In this document: positions 1 through 63,297 of the stretch, piece after piece
Layout of the letters: each line of letters begins with the position of its first letter
Numbering within the stretch: the stretch's first letter is position 1
Assembly (NCBI GenBank): GCA_017506865.1
Contig: JAFCMP010000008.1
Span: 248,001-312,000, forward strand
Reading direction: 5' to 3'
Source: Tribonema minus
Lineage: Eukaryota; Sar; Xanthophyceae; Tribonematales; Tribonemataceae
DNA: 64,000 nt
Position numbers and translations under genes: made by a program
The notes under the pieces: model-generated
What the model was told of the DNA's origin: nothing
What the model saw: only the letters and a program-made list of their open reading frames with translations
Databases searched by the model: none

Positions 1-3000
1 GCGCGAGCTCTCGCCGTTCGCGCGGCGCCTCGTGCGCGAGCAGAATAAACGTGCCGACGTACACGCCGCCGCCGAGCAGGCCCGCCGCGAGGCACGGCAG
101 CAGCAGCGTGTAGTCGTACCACCAGTGGTGCGTGGCGTTCGCGTAGAAGAAGACGAGGAGCGTCACCTGCGCCGCCGGCATGGCGAGCTGCAGGACCCAG
201 CGCGGCGGCGACACGAGGATGCCGCTGGAGCGCGAGATGAACACGCCCACTTGGTACATCCAGTTGGCTGCGCGCGCGCGTAAGGCGTTAGGGGCGCGGT
301 TGAGCATTGAAACAGGACTCTCGGGTGTGATGGAAACGAATCAAAAGATCGTAGAGCTCTAGGTGACAAGGAGTGGTTAGCCGCAAGTGCCTTCCACCAA
401 TAACCGTGGTCACCGCTGCTGCAGTCATTGGCCACGAGTCAAACAGTGCCATCATATCCACAGTAGTCAAAAGACCTCTCTGTGTCAGCTTTTTAGCGTT
501 CGAGGGCATGGGTGTTCGGTATGGAAAGGTCTCGCGTACAATGTATTGAAGCGCTTGTAGGTGAAACATGAAATAGACGAACACGCCCATTTGGTACATA
601 CAGCGGGCTGCGCGCGCGCGCGGCGGTGCGAAGGCACGATTGAGCATTGGCCAAGGGCTCCCATGTATAATATGTCAGAAGCACTTCGGTCATGAAAGAT
701 GAAATGCTTCAACGCGCTGTTGTTCAACAAGTCCACAGTGCAACGTTGCTGTGCAGGGCGGACCATGTGACAGTGGCAACGCTGAATGTACTTTTATCGA
801 TTTCGCTTCGCAAGGGGCGCGAAAAGCCCTCTCTCTGGGTGTGCACCAACGGGGGACTGTGCCATGCGGCAAGGTTTTGGATCGCAAATAAGTGATTATC
901 ATGTACTTCCAAGTAGATGCTTGTGCAAGTGGAGAAATAGCCCCGAGGCAGGGGCGGGACAGTACCAGACTGGTGCTGGACCATGCAGTGGTGGCCTTAC
1001 AGGAGAAAGTCCCAGCATGAAGAAACCTGTGTAGGTATATGCATGCACCCAAGTAGGGTATGTAGGTATCGTACTCCGTCAGTCCAGATATACCACGCCC
1101 GGTCCTCGGCAAGTCACGCAATTTACCCAGAATACCTGCGTGCATTGAGCTTGACAAATATCTGCAGGCGGGGGTACGACAAGCCCTGCCGTCAGTGTGT
1201 CATGTTCACCACATGTGTACTTGAAGCGGGGCCTGATAGTGTGAAACGCACTTTCACTTCATATTTAACCCTCATCGTTTACTGCCTGCAGTGTTAATCC
1301 CACAGGCCTACCCCCAAGGGGCCCGTTTCTTGAATGAAACACCATCTGGGCCGTACAGCATTTATGTCCTGCCGTCAGTGGCTCAGTGTCAACACATGTG
1401 TACTTCAAATGGGAGCTGACACTGAAACACGCACCGTAGAGGTAGAACTGCCGCCTGGCCTCTTCCGACGTGATGGGGAACCCAATGGCGCTCCATGTCC
1501 CAGACTGCATCGCCAACACGTAACAACACACAACACGTAGCAGCTGAAGATGGCATTTGCGCATCCGCACACAGCAGTAAAGCCATCGTGACTTCTGCCA
1601 CATGTCTCAGCAACGTGGCTGCAAAACATTACGTGTATGAATGTCAAGTTCAACCCAATGGCGCTCCATGTCCCAGACTGCATCGCCAGCACGCGACAAC
1701 GCAGGGAGGGAAGCAACTAAGGTGGCGTTTGCGCATGCACACACAGCAGTGAAGCCATCATGACTTCTGCCACTTGTCTTAGCAATGTGGCGGTGCACGG
1801 TTTTTGTGTATAAACTTCAAATTTCACACAATGTGGGCACGCATGCACACACAGCAGTGAAGCCATCATGACTTCTGCCACTTGTCTTAGCAATGTGGCG
1901 GTGCACGGTTTTTGTGTATAAACTTCAAATCTCACACAATGTGGGCACGTCCCGGACGCCAAGTGGCTTCAAGAAGTGCACTAACAATCGGCGGTGTTCC
2001 ACGTAGCAGAACGCACATGTATGCCATGTGCTTGCTTACATGTACACCAATGCGTGCTTGATTCTGTCCCAGGAAAATCTATCAGGTGATATGCATGCAG
2101 CAGTCTGCACACAAGGTAGACAATGCATGGCAGCACCATGGCGTCGATACTGTGAAGTGCATAAGGAGTACATACAGAGTACGTTATGGCGTCGAACTTT
2201 TTTAGAGCTACAAAGTTACTTGAAGTGAACGCCAGTACCTGCATGCAGTACTCCGCAAGGTCAACAACGCACAGCGGTGAATATTATACAGTACTTGAAA
2301 CATGCTTACACCAGTACCCACATACAACAACTCGCAGATCAGCTCATGCGCTGCTTCATCATGTATACACGCATACAGTGCGCTTGCGTGCGCGTGCTTC
2401 CATGCGCGGTTGCTTTTGTGGCGTAACAAAACCGAACAACAATCTAATACCTGCATGCAGTACTCCATAAAGTAGACAAGGCACACTGTGCATATTGGAC
2501 TTTGAAGTACGTCCTGAAGTACATGCATTTGAACGTGCTTCAATAGCACCTGCCGTAGAGTAGCCGATGGCATCGGCAATTTCTTTTGATTTTTACAACG
2601 AATGTGCTTCACTACGCCAGTACCTGCATGCAGTATTGCGCGGACTAGACAACACACAAATGCACAGCACCTAGCCCTCAGTACAGACGTACACCATGTA
2701 CTTGCATTTGTGTACTGCATATGTGTACTGCCATGCCCTAGGCGTAGTTGCTGCTCTTGCAGAAAAAGGTTCAATGTTGCCCGCAAGCATTGCTGTGCAG
2801 ACTAGGTAACGCACAGCGATAAAATGATGCAGCACGTGAATCATGCTTACACCAGCACCTGCGTTCAACCCTCCACAAATCAGCCAACGACCTGCTGCAC
2901 CGTGTATGCACGTATACAGTAGTGCACTTGCATACGCATGCTTTCATGCGCGGTTTGCGGCAAAAAAACACGTACTTCCAATGCATTAGACCACGTGGCG

Positions 3001-6000
3001 CCATGTAGGCGACACTGCACATGACATTCGGGGTACATGCTCTATACTTGCTTGAAGTGTAACTGCCGCATATTTTTTTTTTTTAGTTACAAAGTACTCG
3101 AGCGTGCTTCACTACGCCAGTACCTGCATGCAGTAGCACGCAGAGTAGACAATGCACAGCAGTAGAAATCATACTGTACTTGTTATATGCATACACCAGT
3201 ACCTGCATTCAATCCTCCGCTGATCAGACAACGCGCCGCCGCATTGTGTTTACACGTATACAGTGCACTAGCATACGCATGCTTGCATGCGCAGTTGTTT
3301 CCTATAAATAAATAAATGTTCAATAACCATTCAAGCCCAATACTTCCAAGTACAGTACCTGCATGCAGTACTCGGCAAAGTAGACGACGCACAGCGGCGC
3401 CATGTAGGGCCACAGCGACCCCACAAAGCGCACGCGCTGCAGGAATGTCATGTCCGCTGCGCACGCCGCGCCGCCGTTGAGCACTGCGATGTCGGCCTCC
3501 ACGTCCAGGCCCCCTGCGCACGCGTCACGACGGCACACAAACTAGCTCGTATTAGTACAGCGCCAATTTGGTATACTCACGGTCGCGCGCGCCTGCACTC
3601 AAGCGCCATGTGGACTTCAAGTGATACTTCCGGTGCGTCTGTTCTCGCTGAAATGAGGAGGTATACTTCAAAGGCGTTTGTCTGCGGCCTACTCTGCCCT
3701 GGCCCTAACTCTGACTGTGACCTCATGCAGCGCGTCCTCCAAATGGCCGCAATTACCCGCTTCTGAGCTGCGGCAGCGCTCAGTCCTTTGGAACTGCTGT
3801 CATGCATACGTACCCATCATGTGCCCAAGCCCTAACCCTGAATGTGACCCCAAGCCGTCCAACGCCATCTGCGGCAATGCGTGCATCGAGGTCAAGCCCC
3901 ACATAATTACCCTTAACTTGCCCGTCGCTCCCTACACACTCAAGCCATCCTCAGTCCGTCGTCTGCCGAAACCGCAACGCTCAGCAGCAAGAGCGTCAAC
4001 TTCACCACTTACAGCGCGTGCGATGCGCGACGCAGGCCCCAGCACACGAATCATGATGATACCACAACCGAGTGATGCACTGGTAGAGTACACGCGTGTA
4101 CCCATCGCCCACAAAACTGCATCGCGACACTGCATCAACAAGATGCGTACAAAGTTCAATACTTCAAGTAGGGGGACGCACCGCGTAGCACCTCCGACAG
4201 CCGTCCGCCGCCGTTCAGCTCCAACGGCGGCGGCGGCGGCGGCGCATCCGTTCCCGGCAGCGGCGTGAAATCGTAGCCCCCCGCCTCCGCCACCGCGGCG
4301 GCGTGGGGCTTGAGGTGAAAGTTTGAAGAGCTGAAGTTGGAGGAGTTGAAGTGGCCATTTGAAGTTGACGCCGGGGGGGTCTTGCCGCCGCGCTGTGGCG
4401 GCGGCTCCGCGGGCACGGGCCCCAGCAGCAGGAAGAAGAAGGCGACGAGCGCTGCTGCGAGCGTGTTGGCCAACAGCAGCGTCGCGCGGAAGCTGAAGCC
4501 CGCCAGCACGTGGAACATGTACACGTACGCGTACCTGCGAAGGGGGGGGTCACGCGGGAATCACGCGGCGCTGCGGCGTGAGGAAGTGGCGCTATGTGCA
4601 GAGGTGCACGGATGCAGAGGCGTAAGCGGAAGCCGGCTGGCACGCGGCACATGTAGGCGTACGCGTACCGGCGATAGCGTTAGCGAACCCTAACCCTAGC
4701 CCTCACCCTAACCCTGGCCTACTCTCACCAAGGTGAGAGAAAGCAGCATTTTGTGTCTCCCTACAAGTGCAAGAACTTGATGTTACGTATCCGAACGCGC
4801 CGGCGCCAGCCCTTGCCACCTCTTGCTGACAGTGACAAAATGCTTCAAAGTATGTACTTCATTTAAAGTATCTATGTCACGTGCCCAACTACGTCGGCGC
4901 AGCCCGCGCCGAAAGTGACAAAAATGCTTGCTTCAAGTATGTACTTCAAGTACTTGAAGTATTTGACGTACCCAAACACGCCGGCGAACCCCATGCCGCT
5001 GCTCCACATGGTGAGCGCCCAGCGGCTGATATTAGCAAATTCTAACCCTAACCGTAACCCTAACCTAACCCTTCCCTACTTTCACCAAAGCGAAAGAGCA
5101 ACACTCTGCGTCTCCCCAAAGGTGACAAAATACATATGTTACGTACCCGAACACGCCGGCGAAGCCCGTGCCGCTGCTCCACATGGTGAGCGCCCAGCGG
5201 CTGATATTAGCAAATTCTAACCCTAACCGTAACCCTAACCTAACCCTTCCCTACTTTCACCACAGCGAAAGAGCAACACTCTGCGTCTCCCCAAAAAGGT
5301 GACAAAATACATACGTTACGTACCCGAACACGCCGGCGAAGCCCGTGCCGCTGCTCCACATGGTGAGCGCCCAGCGGCTGTCGTAGCGCGCCGCCAGCGA
5401 CAGGAACGTCGTCTCGCCCAGCGCGCTCTGCGTGCTCGAGAGCGACACGCCCGCCAGCTGCGCGCCCAGTGTCGTGCCGCAGCCCACGAGGCTGCGCGCG
5501 GCAGTTACGGATCAGGGTTCAGGACTTAGGGTGAGGGTTACGACCATAGGGCTAGGGTTGCGGCCACATCTCACGTCGATTGTTAGAACGATACGCCCGC
5601 CACCTGCTCGCCGAGCGTCGTGCCGCAGCCGACCAGGCTGCATGCACGGCAGTTACGGATTGGGGCTGGGACTTGCGATGAAAACGTGTGAGGGTCAGGC
5701 TTATACGAGCATCGTCGCGCCCGGACGGTTAGCGCACTATGCGCGCCAGCTGCACGCGAAGCGTCGTGTGGCAGTTACAGACGAGGGTGGAGTTTATAGA
5801 GGGTAGGTTGAGATTACGCATTAGACTTCAGCTTACAGAAACGTCTCGCCCTTGCAGTTAGGGTACAAGGTTGCTGGCGGAAAGTGTTGCAGAAACGGCG
5901 TCGCGCCAAGCGTCACGCCGCAGCCCATCAGGCTATGCGCGTAGGGGCAGCTGAGAAAGGGTTACGGTCTCCGGTTATGGTGATGAACTAGGGTTGGGGC

Positions 6001-9000
6001 TACAGGCACATGAGCCCGCCCTGATGATTAGAGCGGCAGGCCCGGCAGCTGCGTGCAGAGCGTCGTGCGGCAGGTAACCAATTGCGCAGCGGGCGGCAGC
6101 ATGAAGTGATCAGATGCGGTAATGGGTATGTATACAGTAATGGTTATAACTGTATGTCCTGCACGGTTGGCGATGCCCTACATCTGGCCCCTGCCCTAGC
6201 CCTGCAATGACTGAGGGCTAGACACAGGTGACTGACGCTGCCCTTAACTGGTGGTTGCGTGCCTGGTGCTTGCAGGCGGGGTACGCCGCGCTGCCATGCA
6301 TTGTGCGGGGATGCAAGCAGAGCTGACGGGCGGTGTTGCGGTTCAAAACATGAAGTTTGCGCGGTCGACGAGTGATGCTCCCATCGGCCGCGAGCCGGGC
6401 GTCATGCTGCCATGTGTCAGCATCTCAGGGGTAAAATTAGCCGTAACAGTAGTTGTATTAGCGTTATGAGGCATCACAAACCAGTACTGCAGCAATCTTA
6501 GGGTTAGGGTTAGGGTTAGGGCCGATAAGCGCGGGGAGAATGAAACTGCACACAACGTCAGGGGTTGAGCACGATCATGAGCCAACTGCGCGAGCGCCCA
6601 CAGGATACAGTGGTTTACAGCATGGCACGGAGTGCTGTACTTTTAGGGTTTGGCAAATAACCGCAACTAGGGCTTGCCTCAGCTGAAGCGCACACGATGA
6701 GTGCGCTGCACTTGTGATGCGCATGCTGCGCAGCAGAGGCGCGTGGAACCAGTGCATGAACATCTAAGCTCGATGCGCCCCACACGAGAGCATGGGCCAG
6801 GAGTCATGGATTCACAGACTTCAGCCCTTCGTAGGGTTTGGCAGAAGGCCAACTAGGGCTGCAATTAGGGCTCGTCTCACCTGAATGCGCACACCATAAG
6901 CACGCCGCACGCGATGACACGCGTACTGTGCAGTACCAGGTGGCGCCAGAACACAAGAACTTGAGCTCAGTGTCCTGCACCTGAGCGTGAGCCGTAAGCC
7001 AGAATTCAGCCGTCCATAGGGTTTGGCGAAAGGCTGCAACCAGGGCTGCAGTTGGGGCTCGTCTCACCTGAATGCGCACACCATAAGCACGCCGCACGCG
7101 ATGACGCGCGTGCTGTGCGGCACCAGGTGGAACCAGTACGGCGCCGACAGCTTGACAAAGAAGCCGGGGGCGACGTCGCACAGAAAGACGAGCCCCACCC
7201 CCCCCGAGTTGATCTCCTTGGCCCCCGCCACCTGCGTACACATGAACATGTGCGACAATTAAGAATGCTCTGTCATCAGGAACGCTGACGGTTTCACAAA
7301 CAAAGTCGGGGGCCACATCGCACAGGAAGACGAGCCCCATCCCCCCAGAGTTGATCTCCTTGGCTCCCGCCACCTGTAGCAGGAGATGACCCATGCATGT
7401 TGACCATCGATAATTTAGCATCACAACATGCTGACGGCTTCACTAAACATTCGAAATTCCATGTTGCACAGGAGCCCCTCCACCCCGGAGTTGATCTCCT
7501 TGGCTCACGCCACCTGTCCAGAAGAGATCCTAATCATATGGCGAGTGACACTTATAGTGAGGGCCGCCTTCATTGACTGCGCGGTATGCGAGCTGCTTTC
7601 CTCCAAAAAAGCTCTCAGTTCTGTAAGTTCTGCATCACAGGGAAAACGGGCCACTGAGAGAGCGCGTGTGACGGTGGAGCACTGTATGACAGCGCTCATG
7701 CAGTGGGGAACTCGGTATGATGGAAAGGGGGCCACATGGATGGATGCATGAACGCATGCATCAATGAATGGTGTTAAAACAATGATGTACAATGCAAGGC
7801 GGCCACATGGATGAATGAATAAATGAGCGCAGGCATGAATGAATTAACAAATGTGGATCGTGTCCACAGCCAGCTGCAGGCGCCTGGCCTGGTTACTACT
7901 CGGGAGAACACAAATCGAGAACTGTGAGCAGCACTGTCCACGACTTCTGCTGTCCACGAATGCCCTGGCATTTATGAAATCATGAACGCACCGTCGGTTA
8001 CAAAGCGAGAGAGAGGAACAGATGATTTCATGAACACAGCTCGCGTGCATGGCATGGCTCAGTTGTGGTGTGCTGAGCTGAGACGAGCTACATGCAGAAT
8101 GTGAAATAGTAACCTCATAAGGTGCTGCACGCAGAAACTAGTCTAACAAATGCCACACACCCATCAAACCATCCATATCCAGCACTGTCAAATCTAAACT
8201 TGCCTTAACTTGACGAGCGCCTGTAGGTGTCAGCTCCGACTTGCTGGTAAAAAAATGGGTTACGTATTTTGCAGGAGTAGCGAGTGCTTGCTCATATAGA
8301 CATGCAAGACTGCAAGTGTCAGCCAGCACTGCAACTGCCCAAGAATACCTACATGCCGGCGCAGCAGAAGCTGGCTTGTTGACCGCGGGAGTGTGGCATA
8401 CACGTCTTATGATGTGGTCCATGTTACTGCATAAAGCAATCAGGCAGCCTTTGTGGGCATAAAAGTTAGACAGATGCGCAAATGCAGCGGTGCTGTACCT
8501 TGCAGTCTTGGATTGGAGCATCGTGTTGTGTGGATTTGCGAATGCTAGCAATTAGCTGGTGAGATCTGATCCGGAGACACAATATTGCTCAGTCCCTTTG
8601 TCGCAAACGCCAGGGAGGTTAAAGCTTTACACAGGGCACGGTTCTAGCCGTTGCCTCTCTGAGAAGTGCTTCAGAGAAGCTGAGTTTCTGACTGCAACTG
8701 TGCCACATGCCTGCTGCAAAAACCATCAGATGTGCAAGCTGCACCAGATCTAATGGTGTCACAAACAGCGAAGTAGGTAAACATGTGTTAATGTCATCGT
8801 CATTGACATCGCGCGGGCCAAGAAAGTGCCTCTACTCACCATGATCACATATCCTGTGCTAGAGCACAGCCCCAGAAACCAGAATGCGGTGCGCACGCGC
8901 AGCGCACTGATCCGCCCTGCATCTCCCGCTGCCACTCCATTGCCGGCTGCCTCCTCCTGCTGCTCGTTCGACAGGAGCCCGACATGCATTCCAGCTGCAC

Positions 9001-9139: not shown

Positions 9140-9479
9140 GCACCCCAGCGCAATGAGATCGAAGTCAAGCAGGTCTCTCTCTTTGCTTTCCTTGCACTGT
9201 TTACAGAACAACACTCCCTCTCTCTCTCAAGAAAACTTCAAGGTTGAAGTATTGTCCGAAGTTGAAGTAATTTCTGGAAAATTTTAAAAGTTCTGGCAAG
9301 CCGGCTTGGAGCAGGAGCTGCCATAAAACTGTAGGACACAGCCTGATGAAGGATCTGCTTCGTTGAAGCGGCTGCTGCTTCCGGCAACTCGTCGCTTTAA
9401 TGTCCACATATCAGGTGCTATCTTTGAACACCCCGCGCACACGCAGTTGAAGGGCAACGCAGGGTCTCAGACACCGCCC

Positions 9480-13800: not shown

Positions 13801-15125
13801 GCTGTCGCGGGGCTGTGCGCGCAGGGACTCCGACTCATCGACGGACGAGTCGTTGAAGCTGACGTCATCGGGCTGTGCATTGGCCACGGCTCTCCCGTGT
13901 TTCCGTTTCTGCCAAAGGGGGATAGGGTGCATTTGGAGGGGATGACGGGGGGGGTGCAGCTGTACCGGCACCTCGTGCACCCGTTGGTGCCGGGGGTCGG
14001 CTTTGTGGGAATGAACCACGGCTTTCTCCACATGACACAGGTGAACTGCGATGATTGTCCACAATAATTCGCTGCAAATACAGTGACTGGCATGCCAGCA
14101 TCGATGTCTGCCGTACGTCAAGCAAAGGAAGCATCTGCTGGTTGCAGTGCAGGCTGCAATGCTATACGAAAACCGCTTGCCGGATGGGCAAAGTGCCATT
14201 TTGGGGCTTCGTGCAACTTCGCGTACACTGCAGGGCAGGGACACTGACTGCTGCCCGACGGCATGCTTCATGGTACTTCAAAGTGCTTCTCGCAATGCCC
14301 CCCCCCCCCCCCCCCCATGCCCTTCTGCTCCCTCCCCAGTTCTGCCGCCGCCGCTGCCGCCACCGCCGCCAGGCCGAGTTCAGACGTGCATGTTTCGGAA
14401 CTTTAGAGCACTTGAGAACAATTTTCAAAATGCCCTCCTCCCCCCATGCCTTCTTGCTCACCTCCCAACTCCGTGCCGCCACCGCTGCCGCCGCCGCCGG
14501 GTCGAGTTCAGATGTTGCATGCTTCAGAACTTCAGAACTTCAGAGCAGCTCTCAAAATGCCCCCACCCCCCTCATGCCTTCCGCTCGTTCCCCAGCTCCC
14601 CCTGCTGCCGCCACCACCGCCGCCAGGTCGAGATCAGACGTGCATGCTTCAGAAGCTCAGAGTACTTGGTAGCAATTCTCAAAATGCCCCCCTCCTCCCT
14701 CCCCTGCCCTTCTGCTCACTTCCCAACCCCCCCTGCCCCGCCGCCGCTGCCGCCGCCAGGTCGAGATCGGGACGCTGTGGCTGAGCGCCATGATGCGCGG
14801 CGAGCTGCTGCTGCCGCCCGTCAGCGCTCAGCTCGCGGCCGCGGACGCCATGCGCGCGTGGAAGGCGGCCAACGAGCAGCTCTGCCCCGCCTCCAACTGC
14901 TGCGTCACGGCGCACTACCCGCAGTACAACGACGTGCTGCTGGGGGACCTCGGCATGCGCACCGGCAGGCACACGGGGGCGCGCGCGCTGCTGAGCTACG
15001 TCACGCGCATGGGCGCGAGCGACTACGCAGGCGTAGTGGCAGAGTACGAGGCGCGCCTGAGGAGCGATGCTTCGGGCGGCGGCGGCGCCGCGCCGCCGCG
15101 CCGCGTGCTCGACCGCGTCATGTGA
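10825..15125 (+). CDS. Flavin-containing monooxygenase-like protein (4 exons, 520 aa)
   Basis: This is a predicted FAD/NADPH-dependent monooxygenase of soft nucleophiles or small molecules. Exons: 10825-11174, 12162-12321, 13354-14040, 14760-15125. Phases match and the frame ends at TGA. Residues 5-12 contain the FAD Rossmann motif (GGGFSG), followed by an acidic strand end (VVYERE). The ATG motif is VATGMFGTP (132-140). A second dinucleotide motif, VVGFGKCALD (176-185), should bind NADPH. The FMO-identifying site normally reads F-x-G-x3-H-x3-Y/F; here FRGRIIGPNDM (151-161) has Gly in place of His and Met at the end, so activity may differ. The start is placed just before the nucleotide-binding strand; an in-frame ATG-type start 19 codons upstream is possible. 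Exon 3 is preceded by a pure C run acting as its pyrimidine tract. Confidence 0.9.
13327..13344 (+). repeat. Poly-C tract at an intron 3' end
   Basis: A long uninterrupted C run ends nine bases before the acceptor of the monooxygenase exon 3 (CAG at 13351-13353). Similar C or G runs occur near 14297, 20255, 21259, 43680, 62170 and 63530. Confidence 0.8.
14290..14775. repeat. Array of monooxygenase exon 4 acceptor-edge copies
   Basis: The true acceptor (CCGCCGCCAG, then GTCGAGATC) is at 14750-14768. Three upstream copies near 14354, 14490 and 14612 each contain the C-rich tract, a CAG or CGG junction, GTCGAG-like exon sequence and a TGCATGCTTCAGAA tail. The period is about 125-135 bp. Confidence 0.88.
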
Positions 15126-15195
15126 GCGCCCCCGCTGCTGCTGCGTCATCATGAAAGTATGATGCAGCGCCTGCGGCCCGCTGCATGGCAAGTTC

Positions 15196-15290: not shown

Positions 15291-15299
15291 GCCGCCGCT

Positions 15300-16935: not shown

Positions 16936-17014
16936 TACGACATGTAGATCCCTTACAGCTAGATGCCAACCATCTGGGCTTTTTCGCGCCCTGAGCGAGA
17001 ATTAATAAAAAGTA
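16936..17014 (+). repeat. Dispersed hairpin-plus-tail element, copy 2
   Basis: It starts near GACATGTAGAT and contains CCATCTGGGCTTTTTCGCGC, then CCTGAGCGAGAATTAATAAA and AAGTAC. It aligns over about 80 bp with 59739-59823. GGGC and GCCC can pair across the T/C-rich loop. Confidence 0.75.
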
Positions 17015-42789: not shown

Positions 42790-44284
42790 GAACTGCTACA
42801 CACCGTGGTCGAACCCTTCCATGATCTTGCATCCGCCATACTTGAGTTGATTTGGGGTGTATTTTGACTAGAAGCGCCTAGGCTGTCCTCTTTCAACTGC
42901 CTGTCCTACTTCTTGGGATTGAGCAGATGTGCACAAAGTGCCGTGCACCCTCAAAACTCATTATTATATGATAATGATCTACTACGGCACCATGTAATGC
43001 ATCCACATACACCAGCTGCGGTCTCAGCAGGAGGCACTTGCAAAAGTTTAATTGCATATTCCAGGGTCATGCAGCCACACATGCTGGTATTGAATCACCC
43101 TGTGGTGTTGGCACCACTGTCCAATATATTCCTGGTAGTATCACCACCATTAGTATCACCACCATCGTAGTTGAAGTATGGTTTCCAGCAGCGCCATGTG
43201 TATGTTGAGAAGGAGGCTCTGAGGGGTACTGGGGCAAGCGAAGTCGCAAGCTGCCATGAGCTTACTAGTAGGGTCTGTGTCGCCTGTGCATGCACGCACA
43301 ATGTGACATGTGCTGCATGATGAGGTACATGCCTGCTTTCAAACAGAGGTTGCATCAATATTTGGGGCTGTAGTTTTTATGTGACAGCCGTCAGTGACAC
43401 TGCTGGCAAGCGCACCAGCAATTGGGTGGCAGTCGAAGCTGCTCATAGCCACCAGCCTGAGCTTCAGTGCTGGGGCACAAATGCAATCAGTGCCATGACA
43501 AACTTACAACCGTGTGCTTGCCATGCAGAGCTGCTCACGGTTGTATTATGATGCACTCTCAGACTGCTGAAAGCACTCAGGCTGGCAGCCGAAATTCATT
43601 CTTCAGTCACAATTTGAAATTGTGATCTTCAACGTTGTACAGTGCCTTCGACTCATTTTCAAAAAACAGCGTCCCCCCCCCGCCCCCCCCCCCCCCCCCC
43701 AACCCTCATTAGGGTCACTCCTCCTCTTACAACACCATAGCAGCAGTGCTGCACAAACTTCTTCAAGCTGCCAAGAAAAATCAACCAGTCTAATTACTAA
43801 CTTTAATTGAAATAGTCTGCCATCAGCCGTGGTTGTTGATGCTCCGTTGAGTGGAGGTGCCAACTTCACCAATACACTTTGTATGCTCAGCAAGACGGAG
43901 AGACAGCCAGTTCTGCGGCAAATATTTATTATCCGCGCACCTCAGCATCAATCACCATAAAGCACAGCGTGAGGGCCTCTTTGCTGCGCCGACCCTAGAT
44001 GTATTGACCATGAGTGTGTTATGCCTCGTCTGACGCTCTTCAAGGTTGAGCACACGTTGTTGCTACCACGGGCAGAAGGGCCACCACACGCCGCACCAGG
44101 CCGCAGGAGACCAGCAGCGCTGTCGCCCACAGCGTCTTCATCGTGTGCGGAATCCCTGCCCACTTTTGAAGGAGGCGTCTGCTCAGTGGCGCGCAACGAG
44201 CGTGCTCGTGTCACACGCACATCAGCAGCAGCAGTGGCGCCTGCAACAGCAGACCAAACACCAGACCTAGTACTTACTTCATGA
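42790..44284. other. Intergenic region with a long C tract
   Basis: Near 43673-43700 there is a C run interrupted by one G. Small open frames on both strands overlap one another with no recognisable content. I call no gene. Confidence 0.45.
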
Positions 44285-53000: not shown

Positions 53001-56000
53001 TCACAAAACCTTCCACTTGAAAATCTAATCTAAATGGCATCGCCGAACAGCTTACCCTCTTCTGCTGCTCCCTGGTGTACACCTGTACTCATGCAGTGCA
53101 CATTGGATAAACTCTTCCCCTTGAAGTCTGCAACGTGCTGCTTTGCAGGACGTGTTTCGCCTTGTGTGTCAACTGCTACCATTTGCTGATTGCTGACGCG
53201 CAGCTTCGACAGCAACATCGACATGGTGGCGACGCAGCTCAAGGCAGTGCCCTGCAGCGGCAGCAACAATGTCGCCAACTGCGTCTGGCTCGCAGAGGTT
53301 GAAACGGCACTCCCCAAGGCTGTGGCCCGGCAAGTCCCTGCAAGCGCCAGGTACGGTTCGATTTGTTGAAGGTGGCACACATACACGCACCGAGCAATCA
53401 GCACTTGAGGTTGTATCGTTGTGGCGCGTTGAAGGTTCAGGTCGGCTTCAAGCGTGGCGTTGCTCAGGGGGCAGCGCTCAACTGTCACTCAGATGCCGCC
53501 TCTCCCATGTTCATATGTGCGCATCGCTTTTTTTATGTGCCCTCTTAGGGTTCGTTGTAGAGACACGTTATGCTAAGGTTAGTGGCTGAAATGAGCTTAG
53601 ATGAGCGTCAAAGGTGACCGATAAGGCCCGTTCATGGGGCACATTTCAAGGCATGTCCCTGGTGCAAGAAGTCGCAGGCACTCCGTGCGGTCATGCTGCA
53701 ACGGGCGGGACTACTACTGGTGCACGCAGTGCTGCGTAGCAGCCAGTGTCTCAGTTGCTGTGCCGTGGTGGGCCACCATATTCTATCGAAAATTGTGCAC
53801 GCACAGTCACAGCAGATCGTCTGTGATAGACGTTGGCATCCTCAAATTACTGGTGTGCCTATCTCATTCAGAGTGATCTTCAATGAGCAGTGAGACACTG
53901 TGCCACAAGGTGTTTGTAGACATTCTGTGATGTTTGCCAGTGGTAGCAAGGTTCGCCTCAATCATCTGCGCTTTTGGGCTGTTCGTGCCCTCAGCGAGAA
54001 ATAAGAAAAATATGCAGGTGTGGCATGTACGCATACTATGAAAGTAATCATTATGGTAACATTATTGTTGCGCGTTTCTCTCTGCAGGAGGCACCTGGAG
54101 GAGCGTGATGACCAGGAGCTTGAAGATGACCTTGAACTGCTGGCCGCCATGCAGCGCGGCGACGCCGACGCCCGCGACCACTTTGTCCGCTACGGCGGCA
54201 GGAGGTATGTAGGCATCTGCCTCTGCATACATACCTACCCTAATACAACTACCTCGAAATTACGCAGAATTGAAGGCTTTAGTACAATGTAGACTTTTTG
54301 TGCTCGGTGATACCGGAAGACCGTCGCGAGGGGCTGGCAACATCATAATCAGACATGAGTTTGGGCATCCACTGGTTATATATGGTGCGATGAAGTGGTT
54401 GATTCACGGTAGTTTTTGCGCGCTTCTGGCAGCAATGTTTGACTCATCTCAACTCGGTTTTGCGACCGTGAAGTGCTGTCAGAGACAGGTATCGCTAGTG
54501 GCTGCATTTCAATTTGGTGGTAGTGTGATCTAGAGCTCCGTGCATATAGCGCTTCAATACCGCAATTATATCGCCGCAGACTTTCAGCTGAAGCAGCTAC
54601 TTTTGTATGCTGCTCTGCTTATTCTCGCCTCAGGCTGGAGAGTGACGGCGCAAAGATCATGCCATCTGCCAGACGTCTCGATGACGGCAGCGCACCTTGC
54701 ACCCATGTTCGTGAGGGGGAGAGGTGTAACTGGCATGTTGTGGCTTCAGCCATGTGGCTGCATTTAGTAAAAGCGATATTGCGCTACGTGCATGCTGCAC
54801 TTTGATCCCTTGCTGCAAAATTGCAACTGAGGCGCCTGTGATACGCTGCTCTGCTAATTATTTTCCTTAGGCTGGAGAGTGACGGCGCAGTGATCATGCC
54901 CTCTGGCAGGCGTCTCGACGACGGCAGCGTGGTTACGCTCATGTACGTCTATGGCAACTACACCAAAGCAAGGTGAGTGTTCAACAGCCAGCATGACCGA
55001 AATGGCGCAGAGATGCACGAATGCCAGGCAATGGCAAAATCTATGGCACCAAAACCAATATCAGCTGCATATCGCCATTGAGCTGCATAGCTGCATCTTT
55101 CGCGCTGGGGTCTTGAACTGGCACACCATACCTGAACCTTCAAGTGTCAGGACTGGCAAACACCCAGCCCATGCCGCACTGCAGCTGTTGTTTAGGCAAG
55201 GTCCCATTGTCACTCGCACCTCTTCTTTAAGTGTTATCCGCGCAGCAACGCTCAGACGCTGCAAAAGTTGCAGCATGATCTCAATGTTTGCCAATCTGGT
55301 CCAGCCATGGCATGCCAGTCAGCCACTTGCCTGCGTGGCCATCGCTGACAAGTTCATGTAAACAGGCTCATGTAATATGATTTCGCAAGCCTGTTGAGCA
55401 CTGATGAAAGCTGCTGAGCTGTAGGGTCGCTGTCTGAGCTTCAACGGCTAATACTCTTTACTTTGATTGTATAAGCAGCGATGTATGGCGACCACCCCTC
55501 CCCCCCCTGAGCGGATATTATGCATGTCTTCCCTGCAGCACAGCACACTTTTATTTGACCTTGATCGGCTTTGAAGTGCATGGAAGCGGCGAGTGCTCGC
55601 ACACAACAGTAGCCAGTTGAGGAGCCAGGGCACCACCGCACCCTTGTTGGTGTTGTGTTGACACAGTCTGCGGTTATTTGCCTGCTTGAGTTAGTGGTGC
55701 TTTTGGCTATCAACGCTCGGTGTGTACAGATGCAGAAATCATACTCAGAACTACAACTGATTGGTATAAGGACTACTGAAAAGTAATTGTGAAATGTGCT
55801 GTGAAGGCGCATTGCAGACCAGGTCGCTGCATACGGAACCCTGAGAACACACGCGATACCCGGCCTCCTTGGAACCTTTATGAGTACAAAGCAGCACACA
55901 ACTGCGAAAGATCTTAAATCTTCTGTGTCAGCCAAATCCACCATTGAAGCAACCACTGAAGCAGTGGATGCATTGGGTATCGAACTCCAGGTTCACGGCT

Positions 56001-59000
56001 TGAAAGTCCATCACTACTTAATTGGGGCTGATTGTTTCTAACGAGTTGGGCTTATTGTTCCTGGTACCTAAGTCTCCCTCGTCAAACAATTTTAGAATGA
56101 TACAAGTTTTACCGCAAATTGCAAGGTGGGTACAAAGCATGAGTACGCTGACGAATGCTGTTTCGTGATGCTCAGGTGGGGAAGCCGCACAGCATACCTG
56201 GCCTCCCCTGCGGCTCTCATGAATACATTGTCAAGTCCATGAGTACACCGGCGACTGCTGTTTGATGATGCTCAGGTGGGGAAGCCAGGTGCCCTCCATG
56301 GTGGCCGCCGGCGTCAACAGCGCCAACCTGGTCCTCACCAACAGCGGCGTTAACTTCCAGTTCCAGCTGGTGAACCTCATGTACAGCGACTATGCTGACA
56401 ACAACATGAACACAGCACTGAATGTGAGTGCGCTTTTTTGGCAGGCATTTACAGCAAGTGCGTAGCGCTGATTTCACTTGAAGTTCACTGGTGCTGCTCC
56501 GAGTCGTCCAGGCAACCAAGCTCAGATGTACCTCATTCTGCTCAGAATCGCGCCTTTGCGTGCATGAAGTTTGAAGTTTGCCGGCGATGATAGCAACTTC
56601 AACTGTTTCTCATCTTACTTGAATTACGCCTGTGCGCGCATGACGTGACGCCAAGTACAGTACTATTCGAGGCAGGGACGTAAAAAATGCAGCATGATCA
56701 GACTCAGGTCGCTGCTGGCTGTTGCGGTGCGTAGCCACGGCCAGCCAGGTGCTGCCGCGTTCGGGGTCAGCAAAAGCGGGATGTAGAGCAAAGCATGGCC
56801 CCCTTTTGAGCTGGTGTGCTGCAAGCAGCCAGGGTGTAATCTCAATAACCCCTGCTATACGGTTTGCTGCTGCAATACCTTCAAACCCGTCGGCGAAACC
56901 TGACTATATACCTGACTATAACTCAAAGCATTACGACTATGAATCAGTGAACGCACCGCCAGCTATGCCGCTGTTGTCAGAGCCAACCAGTGAATGGTAC
57001 AGTGCCGACGGCGTCAGATCTGCTCAAATAGGGCGTGTGATGTCAGCATTTGCCTCACGACTGGCTGCATGCGGCATGCACCAGCCAGTAGATCTAACGC
57101 TAGCTAAGTCCTCCTCTGAGCCAGCATGTGAGGTGAGCATTTGTTGCCGCACCACAGCGTGTTTGTATATGGGAGAGAGTGAACCCTGCTATCCACAGTA
57201 GGACCACCTCTCGCCTCTACACTGCCATCGCCACATGTGCGCCATGCCTGAACTTGAAGTTTGCACGTGACGTGCCTCGTGCCGCGCAGGACATGGTCGC
57301 GGGTACGGTGCCAGGCGTGGCAGCAGCGCGCAACACGTACGGTGCGGACCTGATCCAGGTATGTATGTCAAGCCACCAGAAACTGATCGAAGCAGTACTT
57401 CAAGGCAAGCGCTTGAGGGCCACACCATGGTTTTATTTGTGGTTCTGTAGCAGTGCTACAAGAGGGCCTTATAATGTTCATGAACTATCGCCAGCGATGC
57501 GTGTTGCTGGCTGCTGCTGCAGTTGTGCAGACCGCCTGCCGCCTTCCTGCAGTAGAGACAAGTCAATTGTGGCAGACCGGCCGCAGCAGCGCTGCGCTCA
57601 GGTTGTCAGCCCTAATTTACTAAGACGGTTGAAACCAAAATGCACTACGTGTTTCTGGGCCGCTGACCTTCAAGGCAGCTGCACCGAGAAAGGCCCCCCA
57701 GCACTGTGGCATGGTGGCACAAGATTGACAGTATGACAGTGTGAGACAGCGCCTGGTTGTATTGAATGGTATTGCGGCATGCACACCGCCTCTTGTCTGC
57801 CTAATGCCCCGTGTCACTTGCAGGTGCCATTGTCTTCCCGCAAATTGCGTGAACTTCACAATTGCGGATGACTGGTACCACAGACTGGCAATGCGTCACT
57901 TGAGCACTTCCATTTTGTCGTCAGCGGGGCCACTCTTCCTTGTGCACTGACACACCAACAGTCCTGCACTTTCAAGTTTTTGTAGTTCTCATTACTTCTC
58001 GTGCAGGTCGCAAAAAAGCTAAGATGGCTGATGTCAAGCTTGCGTCAAAAGACTACATTTACCTCGTCACGAAGCATCTCAACGCTCATTGGCAATTGCA
58101 ACAAGTCAGACTGGCAATGCCAAACGACTTATTGTACCACCCTGCGCTGCTGATCTACTTATACCTTGTCACAGAACGCCTCAACGCTCATCAGCGGCCG
58201 CAATAAGCTAGACTGCACTGACATTGCCAAATGACTCGTTGTACCACACTGCACTGTTGGTCGTGTGCCACGGCTCAACAGATGATGACTGAGGACCCCG
58301 CCTACTGCGGGATGGGGTGGCTCCTGAACGGCAAATACACGTGGTTCGAGGTGCGCCTGCCGAAATGCAATGATAAGCGCGGGATACACACGAAGCATGC
58401 TGCATGCGCATACATACATATGCTTTCCTATGACTATAAAAAACTCACTGACAGGCAGATACTGCTGGGCTAGTGTTGTGCGTTTTTTTCATGAAATGTC
58501 GGTTAGCTGTCTTCGGGCCGGGATTTGAGGACGTCTGCCTTCTGCAACCGGTTCAATGCTTGCCAACACAGGAATGCTGGTCAGGCGTTAGGGTTAGGGT
58601 TAGAGTTAGGGTTAGGGTTAGGGTCAGGGCCGTTCGTGCACCTGAAGCGTCGATTGACTATCTGTCGGGCCAGGGATTTGGTATGCTGCACTCGGACCCG
58701 TCCATTGCTCACCGACACAGGATTATGCTGAGGCTTTAGGGTTAGCCCTAGGGTTCAGGTTAAGGTTAGGCTAACCCTACTCCCAAGTGTAAAACTCCAC
58801 CCTGCAGTAGCTCTCTGCCTGTCGATAACCACCTCCGTACATGCGCAGGCGCCCGCTCTGCGTCGAAGGCAGAGCTGCTGCTGAGCTGGTCAGTGTAACA
58901 GCAATCAGCACAGTGCCTGAGCACGCATTTAAATTGATTGTGGTGCTGTAGCGCACTGCACCTCAAGCACCGTGCTGCACGCTGGGACACCCCTGCGTCC

Positions 59001-62000
59001 CTGTCAACCAGCACACACAGTATACATGCAATGAGCATGCCATTTTCATGCCTATCTTGGGTCAACTCCGTTCTGCATCGCTGTGTATTTGCGAGCACCG
59101 TTACAGAACTGCTCAACGCGGCTCAGCTCAATACCATCTGCGGTGCAAGTTACAGCTACAGCAGCTGCAGGCAAGACTGGTGCTCGCGAGTTTTGTTCTT
59201 TGCGACCAAAATAATGAATGGTAATGGTCGGGAATCATGCACCATACTACATAGGGTGTTTGCCCCTCAAGCAGAAGTCAACAAGTACAAACCCATACTC
59301 CCAGCTTCGGCACCTGATGTGCTTGTCCGCATTTGATGTACAAGCGGTAACATCGTGCGCACGCGTACCGCCTCCTCTCGTGCGCGCCGCTGCTTCCAGC
59401 AATACGGTAACTCTGCCGTGCTGAACGACTGCTTCACGCCAACGGGCCTCACGCACGCGCACGAGATCGGCCACAACATGGGCTGCCACCACGACATGGG
59501 CACTGACGGCTCTGGTGCTGCCTCCGGAAGCCTCTGGCCCTACAGCTTCGGGTACCGGTGAGTGCCGTGCACATCGCTTGAGCGCTGCTGTGGATGAAGC
59601 AGCTCCTGCCTTCACAGGACGTCGATGTGCCAGTGCTGCTCACGACCGTCATGTGCTCTTCGCCTCTGTAGAGTACCAGCGCTGCTGCAGTGACGACAGA
59701 GAGATCAGAAGTATACAGACTTTCAAGGTGTTCACAAAGACACATGTAGATTCTGGTAGCAAGTCCATGGACGTCCACCATCTGGGCCTTTTTGCGCCCT
59801 GAGCGACAATCAATAAAAAGTACACTGATTTTGATGTTGTGGCATGCTGCGCCTTATGGCCCAGCAGCGATCTGGGTGTTCAAGACATGAAATCATGATT
59901 CCTGCCCATACCTACCTGGAAGCACACGCTCTGAAGCCCACATCCCACCACCGTAACATGTGACACGTTGAGGTGATGATGTACATAGCTTGTGGCGCCT
60001 TCAGATGTTTCCGCACAGCACCCGACGCTGCATTTCAACCACCAGCAAGCAGAGCGATCATCCCACTGCCCAACCATTGTTGCATCATCAAGCTTCTGTC
60101 AATGGCGATAAGGAGCATGCCACTCAGTGGGCAGCACCCCTTAGTCGTCGGTTGAATGTATGTGCAGTAACCTACGATGCCAACAGTTCAGGTTGTAGGA
60201 GACACCAAAGCGCTTGTGTCACAGCTATACACGAGATTGTGGGAGGCTATGCCTGGTGCATCTAGCAGCCGCCGACTGTGGTGCATCTGGCCATTGCCGC
60301 TGCTCTCTCAAACTGCTGCTAGCCGCAAGCACGCTTTTACATTCTACCATCTCAGTAGAGTTGTAACTTGCGCACCTTGCAACAAGGGCAACAGCAACAG
60401 CAGCGCAAGCGTCAGCACGTCAGTTGTAACCCTGATCTCAGCACTGATGCACGGCAGCAACTGGCATCAGAGGCTCTGCTGCTGGAATAGCTGCAGGGGC
60501 TGCCTCGACACTGCTGGCATCGCACCATAATCAAATCCCATGTAAATGAGGCGCCCTCTGGCCAGCGTTAGCACGCTCGCAAGTAAAGAGGCACACACAA
60601 CCAGACAACCATTCAAAGGGAGTCATGCTTGCAAGTGAGAGAGGGCACCCGTCCCCCCAGACAGATATCCAACTGGGGCATCCCCCCCCTCTCACTAATG
60701 GCCCGTGTCACGGTCGCCATTGCTGCCATGTTTGATGCCGAACAGGTACTGCAGCACGCCGAGCTACAGGACTGTCATGGCGTACGGGTGCACGACCGGC
60801 TACGCAGCGCGCGCGCCCTACTACTCAAGCCCCAACGTGTACTACCTGGGGTACCCGACTGGCACAAGTGCGTCACACACATTGAAACTGTTTTGATACA
60901 AACAAGGTGTGGCAACCCTATCGACATTATGTGTGTGCCTCATGGCACAGGTGCGCAGAATCCATTAAAAATCCTTTTGATACAAGCAAGGTGTGGTAGC
61001 CCTATCAACATTATGTGTGTGCCACATGGCTGGCGCAGCCGCAAGCCTTGCTGACGTCCAATTAACAGCAGCAGAAGCAGCAGCAGCAGCAGCAGGTTGC
61101 GCATCACCACCAGTGGAGCGCCAGCTTAATGAAGGCATGCACCGAATGTGCACAGGCGCCACGTGCTTACCATCCACAGCTGTTTGAGGGACAGCACCAA
61201 CGGGCAGCAATGGAGAGACAAGCGCCCCATATCAAGTGTCAGCTACTTTGTTTGCCATCGCCTTTGTACCACTGGTTTTGGCGTCAGGGGCGTGAGGTAC
61301 TGTCCTCAACCTAACCCTTGGGCCAGGGCTTCCACATCTTTCGTTCTGTGGTGGCACAACAGTTGTCATATGCGATGCTTTGTATTTGCGCACTCAAGCC
61401 TCTGCAACGCAGCTGGTGCCAGCAAAGTGCAACCAAACTGTTTGCCTTTTTGTGCAGCATACTAAAAAATGAAGTGGTATGCTGAGGTGCGCCTGAGGGT
61501 CTCGGCACACATCTAATAGGCAACACAGACGCATGGCACGATGCCCCCTTTTGCTCTCCCACCCTGCCCAGCGCGCAGGCTAGAGAGGCGCTGTGCAACG
61601 CGTCCTGCTGCCATCTAGCTTTTCGCGTGGCACCTGTTGTTTTCCTTGCTTGAGGATTAAAACTGCATCGCACAGTGTCTCACCCTCACTCAAAACCCCT
61701 GGACTACCCACCATGACTTACGCCTTTGGACGCTCCAAGACAGGCCAGAGGGTTCTGTGCATGCGCACCACTGCAGCATATGACACAGACACTGGCGCTG
61801 CGCCATACTCCGGCATGCCTATCAGACACCTGCTGCGTTGCACCCACAGCATCCTCGCCGCAGACATGAATTGTCCAGGATGTGCAATTGCACTGCAACT
61901 TCACCTTCACCGCCAGCGGTGCATACAACAGTGTGGTTCCCTCTACTGTGTCGCTGCGTGCAACAACACTGCGCTCAGCAGAATTGGCGAGTGCGCCAGT

Positions 62001-63297
62001 GGCTCCTGTGCACAGTGTGGTTCGTTCTGCTGTGCTGCGGCATGCTGACTGACAACGCTGCCTGCTGGTGCTATGATCACAATCGAAAACTCTGCAAGTG
62101 GCTTTCGTCCTTCAAGTTGGTGATGCGGCAGAGCGCATCCTCAGAACTATAGCTATTAACAGATATAACCGACCACCCCCCCCCACCCCCCCACCCACCC
62201 CTGCCTCCCTGCCCCTGCTGCCCTGCGTCAGCCGCCGAGGACAACGTGCGCACGCTGAACGACTCCAAGCTGACCGTGTCCAACTTCAGGCTGAATGGCA
62301 GCACGCCCACCGCTACACCAACTTCAACTCCCACTTCCAAGCCCACTACGACGCCCACGTCTGCACCCACCACTGCCAAGCCAACTGCCGTTCCCACGAA
62401 CACGCCCACTGCTACACCGACGTCTGCGCCTACTACACTTAAGCCAACGGCAACGCCGACTGCTACACCAACGTCGGCGCCTACTACACTCAAGCCGACG
62501 GCAACGCCAACCGCGACCCCCACTGCCACACCTACTGCCATGCCCACGGCAGTACCTACTGCCAAGCCAACGGCGGAACCTACTGCCACCCCCACCGCCA
62601 CGCCGACAACGGCTGCGCCCACCGCCAACCCGACAGCTGAGCCAACTACAGCTCAGGTATTTCAAATATGTTAGTGTTCCTCTGTTTGAGAGCAGTTCTG
62701 CAACAGTTCTGGTACAATTTCAATGCTCTTCGCTCTTGTTCTGCCGGTGCAATTCGAGCATGGCAAATCTGGTGTTCACTCTCATGAGTGACTTCTTGAA
62801 TACGGTGCGCTGACCAGCTGCGCATTTTCGCTTCTGCTGCAGCCAACGGCGGAGCCCACTGCCGACCCGACTACTGCTCAGCCCACCACTGAGCCTACTG
62901 CGCAGCCCACCGCCACGCCGACTGCTGAGCCCACTACAGCTGAGGTATGTCAAAAATGTTGGTGTTCCTTCGTTTGGAAACAATTGTGCCGCAGTTCTGG
63001 CACGATTCAGATGCTCTTTGCCCCTGTGCTGCTGGTGCATAATCAATCACGGCAAACCTGGTGATCACTCTCACGAGTGATTAATACGATGTGCTGACCG
63101 GCTGCTCATCCGCGCATCTGCTGCAGCCAACAACGGAGCCTACCGCCACTCCCACCACTGCTCAGCCCACCACTGACCCTACCGCGCAGCCCACCGCCAA
63201 GCCGACTGCGGAGCCCACACTTGCCCCTACGCCTCTGCCTACAGCAAAGCCCACTGCCACGCCGACTGGCACGCCAACTGCCACGCCGACCGCCAAG
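47024..63297 (+). CDS. Secreted M12B/reprolysin-like zinc metalloprotease with Pro/Thr-rich stalk (16 exons, 3' end open)
   Basis: Exons: 47024-47143, 49910-50036, 50632-50714, 51588-51677, 52143-52243, 53204-53350, 54088-54204, 54871-54972, 56276-56423, 57290-57358, 58282-58350, 59400-59557, 60746-60867, 62232-62656, 62843-62944, 63127-63297. All phases agree (717 codons). A signal peptide ([18 protein letters not shown]) opens the protein, followed by a propeptide-like region. The catalytic part shows [17 protein letters not shown], the zinc site [12 protein letters not shown] (H412, E413, H416, H422) and a Met-turn, RTVMAYGC (M455). From about residue 509 a TPTA/KPTA repeat forms an extended, probably O-glycosylated stalk. 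Likely extracellular or cell-wall associated. The gene probably continues past 64000. The first junction (2.8-kb intron) is the least certain. Confidence 0.88.
47760..49080. other. Metalloprotease intron 1: low-complexity repeats
   Basis: No exon is recognised. The region has short hairpin-forming CAGTCACTGTGACTG-like sequence near 47830 and a tandem pair of about 70 bp (near 48225 and 48285, ATCAACGACTTTTGxTAAG). ACTACATGGGTACTCC is repeated at about 48510. Confidence 0.55.
51050..51240. repeat. Duplicated block in metalloprotease intron 3
   Basis: CGCGCGACCATGCGCGGCGG, then CCTGCAAAA (51053 on), recurs as CGCGCAACCATGCGTGGCGG, then CCTGCAAAA (51208 on). Both are followed by TTGAAGTTT-type sequence. 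Confidence 0.7.
53963..54012 (+). repeat. Dispersed hairpin-plus-tail element, diverged copy
   Basis: This contains GGGCTGTTCGTGCCCTCAGC, then GAGAAATAAGAAAAATA, matching the GGGC...GCCCTgAGCGAgAAT...AAAAA pattern of the copies at 16936 and 59739. Confidence 0.5.
54625..54972. repeat. Copy of metalloprotease exon 8 upstream of the real exon
   Basis: Sequence at about 54625-54712 matches the start of exon 8 (54871 on), including GGCTGGAGAGTGACGGCGCA, ATCATGCC and CGTCTCGA. The copy is shifted at its 3' end, lacks the matching donor and is preceded by a similar CTGCTCTGCTxATTxT flank. Confidence 0.85.
56141..56290. repeat. Copy of metalloprotease exon 9 acceptor edge
   Basis: GATGCTCAGGTGGGGAAGCC at about 56170 is repeated at about 56267, each preceded by GAGTACxCxGxCGAxTGCTG. 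Only the second leads into the full exon. Confidence 0.88.
58060..58285. repeat. Tandem repeats before metalloprotease exon 11
   Basis: Units with CTCAACGCTCAT, AGACTGxxxTGxCA, CAAATGACT and TTGTACCACxCTGC recur from about 58078 to 58255, directly upstream of the acceptor at 58281. An older relative lies near 57870. Confidence 0.7.
58585..58785 (+). repeat. Interstitial telomere-type tracts
   Basis: A run of TTAGGG units with two variants at about 58588-58628, and a second degenerate cluster at about 58736-58785 where TTAGGG turns into CCCTAGGG and CTAACCC. The flanking sequence (GAATGCTGGTCAGGC, GACTATCTGTCGGGCCxGGGATTTG) also recurs, so the block is duplicated. It lies in metalloprotease intron 11. 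Confidence 0.8.
59739..59823 (+). repeat. Dispersed hairpin-plus-tail element, copy in metalloprotease intron 12
   Basis: This contains ACATGTAGAT, CCACCATCTGGGCCTTTTTG, CGCCCTGAGCGACAAT and CAATAAAAAGTAC. It aligns along its length with 16936-17014. Confidence 0.75.
62657..63126 (+). repeat. Duplicated intron-exon unit in the protease stalk
   Basis: Intron 62657-62842 plus exon 62843-62944 is matched by intron 62945-63126 plus the start of exon 63127. The introns share GTAT, the TGTTxGTGTTCCT start, CAGTTCTGG, CACTCTCxxGAGTGA and TGCGCTGACC, then CTGCTGCAG at the end. Both exons are phase 0 and encode PTxEPTA repeats. Confidence 0.93.

Follow-up and report, generated by a model that had tools for sequence, protein, structure and literature searches.

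We describe here a pattern of local duplication at splice junctions in the alga Tribonema minus, starting from a 64-kb stretch of its genome (assembly GCA_017506865.1, contig JAFCMP010000008.1, positions 248,001 to 312,000; hereafter the window). Introns in this stretch contain direct copies of the neighbouring exon edge, each consisting of a truncated exon end, its splice site and some intron. Junction-centred duplication is a real pattern in a pooled sample of the genome, and it extends beyond the window. The explanation that we favour, by a fairly narrow balance, is that local duplications recur and are concentrated on splice junctions by a mutational bias, arising through repair of staggered breaks and later array expansion, and that introns lengthen from their ends in this way. 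Lengthening of introns is usually ascribed to transposons and to random insertions and deletions (indels). The general kind of event is known, namely harmless tandem duplication hidden by splicing. As to the junction-edge form, no description of genome-wide exon-edge copies in introns was found in the titles and abstract beginnings that searches of the open-licence literature listed, which is no proof of absence, the subscription journals lying mostly outside that search.

The sample consists of the window, placed on the contig numbered C8, and 22 spaced 10-kb stretches on six other contigs, a total of 284 kb from an assembly of 158 Mb in 554 contigs. Genes were modelled with a two-strand gene finder using splice-site matrices, seeded with the exons of the window and trained on all 284 kb. 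The splice sites that it learned are CAG/GTGAG-like donors and GCAG acceptors with a weak C-rich tract. It returned 345 exons, among them 201 strong ones (at least 60 bp, with log-odds of at least 8), which supply 378 strong splice junctions. The gene finder merges neighbouring genes and calls spare copies as mini-exons, and gene ends and weak exons were therefore disregarded. Self-BLAST, filtered for sequence complexity, was used to call local duplications. It yielded 111 arrays, of which the five lying in exons were set aside, leaving 106 for testing. A junction array is one in which a strong junction sits at least 8 bp within a copy.

By this definition 58 of the 106 arrays hold a strong junction. 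Circular shifting of the junction map within each stretch gives an expectation of 25.6 ± 4.1, with none of 1000 shifts reaching 58, and random placement sparing exons gives 18.2 ± 3.8 (16.9 and 18.7 in a first run). The excess survives when the exon criteria or the E-value are tightened or the margin is widened (48/106 against 14.7 expected; 43/90 against 11.5), and is retained when the window is removed (43/72 against 13.8, the expectations together spanning about 14-18; 34/65 against 9.2 under stricter settings). For the arrays near junctions alone, a subset that kept junction matches regardless of the array centre, the count is 58 of 83, against 26.8 ± 4.2. Donors account for 37 arrays, where shifting predicts 15.9 ± 3.2 and the maximum of 400 shifts is 24. 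The fraction of sequence covered by duplications falls from 0.25 at the donor edge to about 0.09 at distances above 600 bp, and from 0.16 at the acceptor edge to 0.09-0.13 at distances above 200 bp. Copies that reach the exon edge occur in 16 of the 23 stretches, the window among them. The initial annotation of the window had proposed a process acting well beyond it, and had suggested comparing the position of tandem blocks with chance: the copies are indeed present on other contigs too, and the blocks fall on exon edges more often than random placement or shifting predicts.

The most parsimonious alternative is that tandem duplication is uniform, with selection removing the events that break exons and the conserved exon keeping junction arrays detectable for longer. 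Because the exon edge is conserved, a junction pair should remain recognisable longer than other pairs, and this was the motive for a simulation combining uniform tandem duplications, a selection filter, neutral decay (at two indel rates), constrained exons and identical detection. Both the filter and the survivorship effect are real in the simulation, in which the junction fraction is 0.158 at birth and 0.197 or 0.213 once arrays are detected. The observed fraction, however, is 0.55, and 21-23 junction arrays are expected where 58 of 106 are seen. Nor is the excess any weaker among the arrays whose copies are most alike (at least 87% identity), where survivorship should count least: 19 of these 31 hold a junction, with 4.9 expected. 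Uniform duplication is thus disfavoured by the shift, placement, simulation and near-junction tests alike, and we regard it as rather improbable.

The main rival is instead a duplication process biased towards exons, as coding or GC-rich transcribed DNA, and shaped by selection, such that events inside exons die, those spanning an edge survive thanks to the splicing out of the spare copy, and long exon parts are purged as cryptic exons. The five arrays within strong exons fit this idea, as does a duplication cover of 0.049 more than 1 kb from strong exons, compared with 0.09-0.22 in intron sequence lying within 1.4 kb of a junction. Exon bias alone, however, predicts exon parts longer than under uniform placement, and those observed are shorter, so that additional selection is needed. 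We consider this explanation unlikely, with a chance of being right that has to be taken seriously.

The anatomy of the copies was analysed at the junctions adjoined by 80 bp or more of non-exon sequence (340 of the 378), this sequence being searched for matches to the exon. Of the 123 matches, 122 are direct and one is inverted. In exons 120 bp or longer, 77 of 93 matches extend to within 5 bp of the junction. Among the 70 junction matches, 62 have their second copy on the intron side; several of the other eight are spare copies that were themselves called as exons. Altogether 62 of the 340 junctions (38 donors and 24 acceptors) have a copy reaching the edge. The copied exon edges span 24-119 bp, with a median exon part of 49.5 bp at donors and 40 bp at acceptors (95% are below about 94 bp), and the median offset of the junction arrays is 154 bp. 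In 30 of 59 cases the stretch of intron that separates the junction from its nearest copy recurs, as a whole unit, on the far side of that copy; only the near half recurs in 9 and only the far half in 6. The control gave one whole and one partial match in 56. Contiguous tandem duplication is therefore the largest class of junction copies. A minority resemble an exon edge and splice site copied over an unrelated spacer, as at position 7562 of stretch L029, for which either later rearrangement or repair filler could be responsible. In two-copy arrays of at least 83% identity whose copies abut, the overlaps are 1-4 bp (four arrays only).

At 30 junctions there are two or more copies. Their exon breakpoint is identical at 19, as array expansion would give, and differs by at least 8 bp at 11, which suggests separate events. 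The fact that copies at one junction often differ in both divergence and breakpoint (11/30) makes an assembly artefact an unlikely source of the arrays. The shared breakpoint at 19 of the 30 is a likeness to minisatellite expansion, which nevertheless leaves the first duplication of the junction unexplained. Introns with copies are longer (median 848 bp against 538 bp), although longer introns also give more space in which to find copies. Edge copies are present at both ends of 11 of 164 introns, a co-occurrence above chance (Fisher p = 0.006), from which it appears that some introns or genes are more active in duplication than others. Copies of 96-100% identity adjoin decayed ones, in agreement with the earlier suggestion that the process is ongoing.

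The copies decay in a manner that fits an absence of constraint on them, together with constraint on the exon at the first two codon positions. When each of the 62 junctions is represented by its best match, the differences between exon and copy number 59 in 1002 first positions, 73 in 999 second positions and 144 in 1000 third positions, and all ten indels between exon and copy have a length not divisible by three. It could be argued that the copies are functional, serving as alternative exons or as decoy splice sites, or being favoured because they make splicing more robust. The copied splice sites are largely intact (GT in 46/49, AG in 27/29, slightly above the fraction of about 0.87 that neutral divergence predicts), and some copies were called as mini-exons. 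The intact fraction is, however, close to the neutral prediction, positions 1 and 2 differ half as often as position 3, and none of the indels preserves the frame. Moreover, when the copies are omitted, the exons encoding ATP synthase beta and UBA1 align across their junctions to solved homologues that have no room for the copies; one 26-residue stretch of UBA1, from a doubtful exon, has no counterpart in the solved homologue. On the neutral codon-position pattern, the indel lengths and the lack of space in solved homologues, the copies are rejected as coding exons, and a functional role of any of these kinds seems very unlikely. A tubulin-like gene and CLN3 also match their families, with gaps in the tubulin-like alignment and a match at family level only for CLN3. 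The nearest protein by identity, P0122 (97%), is likewise without the copies; its source contig, of 1,629 bp, could hardly hold introns. The closest named matches of ATP synthase beta are from brown algae and Chrysoparadoxa, at 91-92%, and the best full-length match of CLN3 is at 45%, which we take to point to an ochrophyte. Across these four genes (ATP synthase beta, UBA1, tubulin-like and CLN3), 25 of 49 junctions, as judged by eye, have copies, two of them weak; the genes were chosen after arrays had been seen at their loci, making this an illustration and not an estimate. It is worth adding that a Meloidogyne incognita ATP synthase beta, P0121, has an internal repeat of about 95 residues, perhaps an error of the gene model or assembly, and a bit score above those of closer homologues.

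Searches of the whole genome bear on the same pattern. A hidden Markov model (HMM) search for chaperonins, which is independent of the gene finder and of the sampled loci, gave 56 rows, containing six pairs that overlap by at least 15 residues within 1.5 kb. In five of them the matches are nested: four combine an exon and a shorter match with which it has its intron-facing end in common, and one combines two copies. The sixth pair overlaps in a staggered manner. The exon and copy pairs represent three junctions, one of them with two copies, and all of the copies lie on the expected side. Two kinesin cases also fit the edge-copy pattern, among rows that were picked because they had been noticed (10 of 132).

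Two further explanations invoke known ways of making introns. Introners are dispersed elements that resemble one another, and mobile elements of this or another kind might insert at junctions and leave long target duplications. In favour of this, a dispersed element of about 208 bp lies between the two copies at the CLN3 acceptor 268 of the window. This is, however, the only one of 15 copies of the element examined to have a long flanking duplication, two others having weak matches of 21-33 bp. In addition, the blocks of three array stretches (CLN3 and two others, L012 and L029) match only locally in a genome search in which very common words were skipped; their remote matches are 30-58 bp long and involve other parts of the query or telomere-like motifs. 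Within the 284 kb, 29 spacers were also compared, and most of their matches are in their own array, short, or in simple or telomere-like tracts, the 208-bp element being the exception. Introners and the present arrays share a genome-wide change of introns, and differ in that the array blocks tested here match only locally. To this extent the distinction from introners made in the initial annotation is upheld, and introner or transposon activity is a highly improbable source of the arrays.

Alternatively, the introns might have been born by tandem duplication of exonic AGGT segments, in which case both junctions would lie inside the repeat by construction. Intron gain by tandem genomic duplication is reportedly known from potato. 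The mechanism has in vivo support (reviewed in PMC3443670), and a new intron arises in it between the duplicated AGGT sites. The likeness is that a tandem duplication is harmless when splicing removes the extra copy; the difference is that there a new intron is made, whereas here the duplication acts on a junction already in place and lengthens the intron that it belongs to. Birth of this kind requires homology between donor and acceptor at an offset equal to the intron length, and in 162 introns, compared over 100 bp on each side and with introns below 30 bp skipped, none of the 21 homologies listed comes within 5 bp of the intron length, the closest being 10 bp away. AGGT intron birth is accordingly rejected for the detectable age range only, and we give it almost no credence as an account of the arrays. 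The claim that introns here are built by duplication hence finds no support, within that range, if it means that they were born in this way.

The mechanism that we propose would begin with local duplications, at offsets of about 60-330 bp, that arise repeatedly and copy the exon edge together with the start (or end) of the intron alongside in direct orientation. The outer copy would continue to join the exon, and the inner copies would stay within the intron and outside the conserved product, decaying there as neutral DNA, so that the intron would grow from its ends. The copies would presumably always be spliced out. Their concentration on junctions would be mutational, with breaks or re-copying commoner within roughly 100 bp of a junction. 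As the immediate cause we favour error-prone repair, in which staggered breaks would be filled in and their ends joined, the array then expanding in the ordinary way. As to why breaks should occur near exon edges, transcription-linked R-loops or linker DNA at the exon edges may be responsible, which is conjecture.

Several published observations resemble parts of this scheme. Small tandem duplications have been attributed to fill-in of break ends by CST and Pol alpha-primase, with complementary overhangs and end joining (PMC8355091). These share the direct orientation found here (122/123), and differ in being described as below 100 bp and at breaks made by Cas9, whereas the present duplications have a median offset of 154 bp, follow junctions in their position and are known from sequence. 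Introns of Daphnia have short direct repeats at their splice junctions, ascribed to repair of staggered double-strand breaks (as related in PMC3443670); those repeats flank newly gained introns, unlike the 24-119 bp exon edges that lie within introns here, often several times. Finally, direct repeats of 4-30 bp have been described at or near the borders of one intron (PMC11782384), which is a like placement at exon-intron borders, the difference being that here longer copies of one border lie inside the intron.

A number of points weigh against our interpretation. The mutational step and its polarity are read from a single genome sequence, and are to that degree provisional. The excess at acceptors is modest when taken alone (26 arrays against 16.6 ± 3.3, where the maximum of 400 shifts is 28), and the case consequently depends mainly on donors; the peak in duplication cover is only 2.5-fold at donors and slight at acceptors. 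Start and stop codons, as control edges, are in arrays in 0 of 13 and 0 of 11 cases, numbers that are too small to serve as a control. The exon parts of the copies are shorter than the median of 79 bp under uniform placement, which selection against long exon parts could also produce. Fourteen of the 59 junction copies, including that at L029 7562, have no intron homology past the edge, and 28 of 33 two-copy arrays of at least 83% identity show an apparent gap of more than 10 bp in BLAST, beyond what is expected for a mildly decayed plain duplication. Telomeric tracts, a possible scar of repair, are only weakly enriched at the ends of copies (present at 4 of 62 junctions and at 2.7% of control positions). 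The HMM matches of HSP70 and HSP90 (105 rows) contain no nested pair, such matches being insensitive to copies of 8-25 residues.

Within the window, self-comparison reveals many direct local repeats, mostly at offsets of about 60-600 bp and with 67-99% identity. As the initial annotation had reported, the edge copies comprise truncated exon edge, splice site and some intron, are direct and local, occur on both strands and at both donors and acceptors, and range from near-identical to decayed, with identities of about 71-100%. Its statement that the repeated block always contains the exon edge goes too far: 15 of the 35 arrays in the window contain an edge by the strict rule, with three more added by eye, and the remainder are intronic, intergenic or within an exon. 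In the pooled sample, too, about half of the arrays lack an edge (58/106 hold a strong junction). Pfam matches identify CLN3/battenin, an FMO-like oxidoreductase, a PPR protein, an M12B-like peptidase and a HAD-type open reading frame (ORF). Arrays in every gene, and seven multi-exon genes, had also been claimed. Junction arrays are found in five multi-exon coding units, namely CLN3, FMO-like, PPR, M12B-like peptidase and an unnamed ORF group (34.3-41.4 kb). Neither edge of the HAD-type ORF (32898-33731) bears an array, and seven genes could not be separated in a model that merges neighbours.

CLN3 lies on the minus strand. At its acceptor 268 (235-649) an exon-edge block at 235-309 has a copy at 575-649, with the 208-bp element (330-537) in between. 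Donor 3359 (2229-3397) has edge copies about 870 and 1080 bp inside the intron, and additional local repeats. The edge block and copy at acceptor 4535 (4486-4674) were excluded from the junction arrays by the 8-bp margin and are one of the three additions made by eye. Donor 5324 (4960-5380) shows the real edge and two copies with a period of 175 bp, about 96% identical and with an exon part of 57 bp; this array has no other full match in the genome, very common words again being skipped. There follow acceptor 5492 (5439-5674; edge block and copy, period 146), donor 7068 (6815-7139; edge block and copy, period 185, 87%) and acceptor 7232 (7142-7517; edge block and two copies, period 141).

The PPR gene is also on the minus strand. 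Edge block and copy are found at acceptor 21000 (20965-21286) and, with a period of 123, at acceptor 24141 (24118-24294). Donor 23053 (22344-23100) has several decayed copies in an array with exon parts of 44-48 bp, donor 24036 (23541-24096) has 3.7 copies with a period of about 144, and donor 25438 (25055-25489) has 3.6 copies of a unit of about 104 bp, with CCCTAA tracts adjoining the copy ends. The array at acceptor 25750 (25720-26197), with exon parts of 27-30 bp, fell outside the array count, apparently through the complexity filter.

On the plus strand, acceptor 14760 of the FMO-like gene (14304-14768) has 3.6 copies of a unit of about 127 bp, with an exon part of just 9 bp. In the unnamed ORF group, donor 35320 (35258-35851) has a near copy at 92% (62 bp of exon and 14 bp of intron) and more decayed ones; at acceptor 36923 (36509-36956), 36657-36766 is an upstream copy of 36846-36956, and a further repeat starts from 36509; and donor 41374 (41322-41850) has the real edge and three copies, with repeat offsets of 118, 249 and 381. 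In the M12B-like peptidase gene, also on the plus strand, the other two arrays added by eye are at acceptors that the gene finder placed incorrectly. The first (54606-54929) has a copy at 54606-54692 and the real acceptor region at 54842-54929, the exon start being assigned by inspection; in the second (56138-56286), 56138-56186 is a copy of the edge at 56238-56286, CAG followed by GTGGGGAAGCC is present in both, and the predicted acceptor is about 10 bp off. Donor 60868 of the same gene (60860-61030) has two copies, with a period of 83 and an exon part of 8 bp. Thr/Pro-rich exons at 62565-63218 (plus strand) are duplicated jointly with their intron at a period of about 276-284, and so are not edge-only. 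Donor-like repeated motifs at 29539-30196 have no strong exon there, and are hence outside the gene assignment.

The 208-bp element is present in the window at 330-537, 31029-31184 and 39001-39078, one copy being in a foldback structure at 30889-31891. A first look gave 2972 candidates genome-wide; 43 are among the matches listed, itself included, and most of the full-length ones are 92-94% alike. A second dispersed element, of about 105 bp, has a hairpin-like GGGC..GCCC motif and then AATAAAA, and is found at 16972-16997 and 59717-59824; there are 1089 first-look candidates and 41 among the matches listed, itself included, at 87-94%. TTAGGG/CCCTAA tracts are seen in introns, in 31 and 21 clusters by strand across the 284 kb, for example at 25057-25071, 26353-26373 and 58591-58623 of the window and at 6261-6903 of stretch L010, and are sometimes head to head (8370-8409 of L028). 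Duplication arrays contain 19 of these 52 clusters, where 6.8 are expected. Telomere-like tracts have reportedly been seen as scars of break repair in mammals, and it is possible that those here are the same. Runs of at least 10 C or G form 49 clusters in the 284 kb, three of them in predicted exons (examples in the window are about 43673-43700, 63529-63548 and 14299-14317). Two HSP70 regions, in L031 (C179, 221001-225000) and L032 (C90, 846001-850000), are 95.6% alike over about 3.9 kb and have one 51-bp repeat in common; they are either a recent duplication or uncollapsed alleles. A further pair lies on opposite strands of C522.

For annotation, the copies call for caution: some resemble mini-exons with good splice sites, and our gene finder called them as exons. 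For the biology of the genome, part of the growth of introns is traceable to junction duplications. Young and old copies coexist, and the exon acts as a fixed ruler for both age and breakpoint. A bolder claim, which we offer tentatively and think somewhat doubtful, is that splice junctions are mutational hot spots for duplication in this lineage, through breaks or re-copying tied to transcription or splicing, and that its introns may have grown mainly by copying their own ends. A question of long standing, namely what kinds of mutation make introns longer and whether the junctions are themselves fragile sites, can be tested directly on this pattern.

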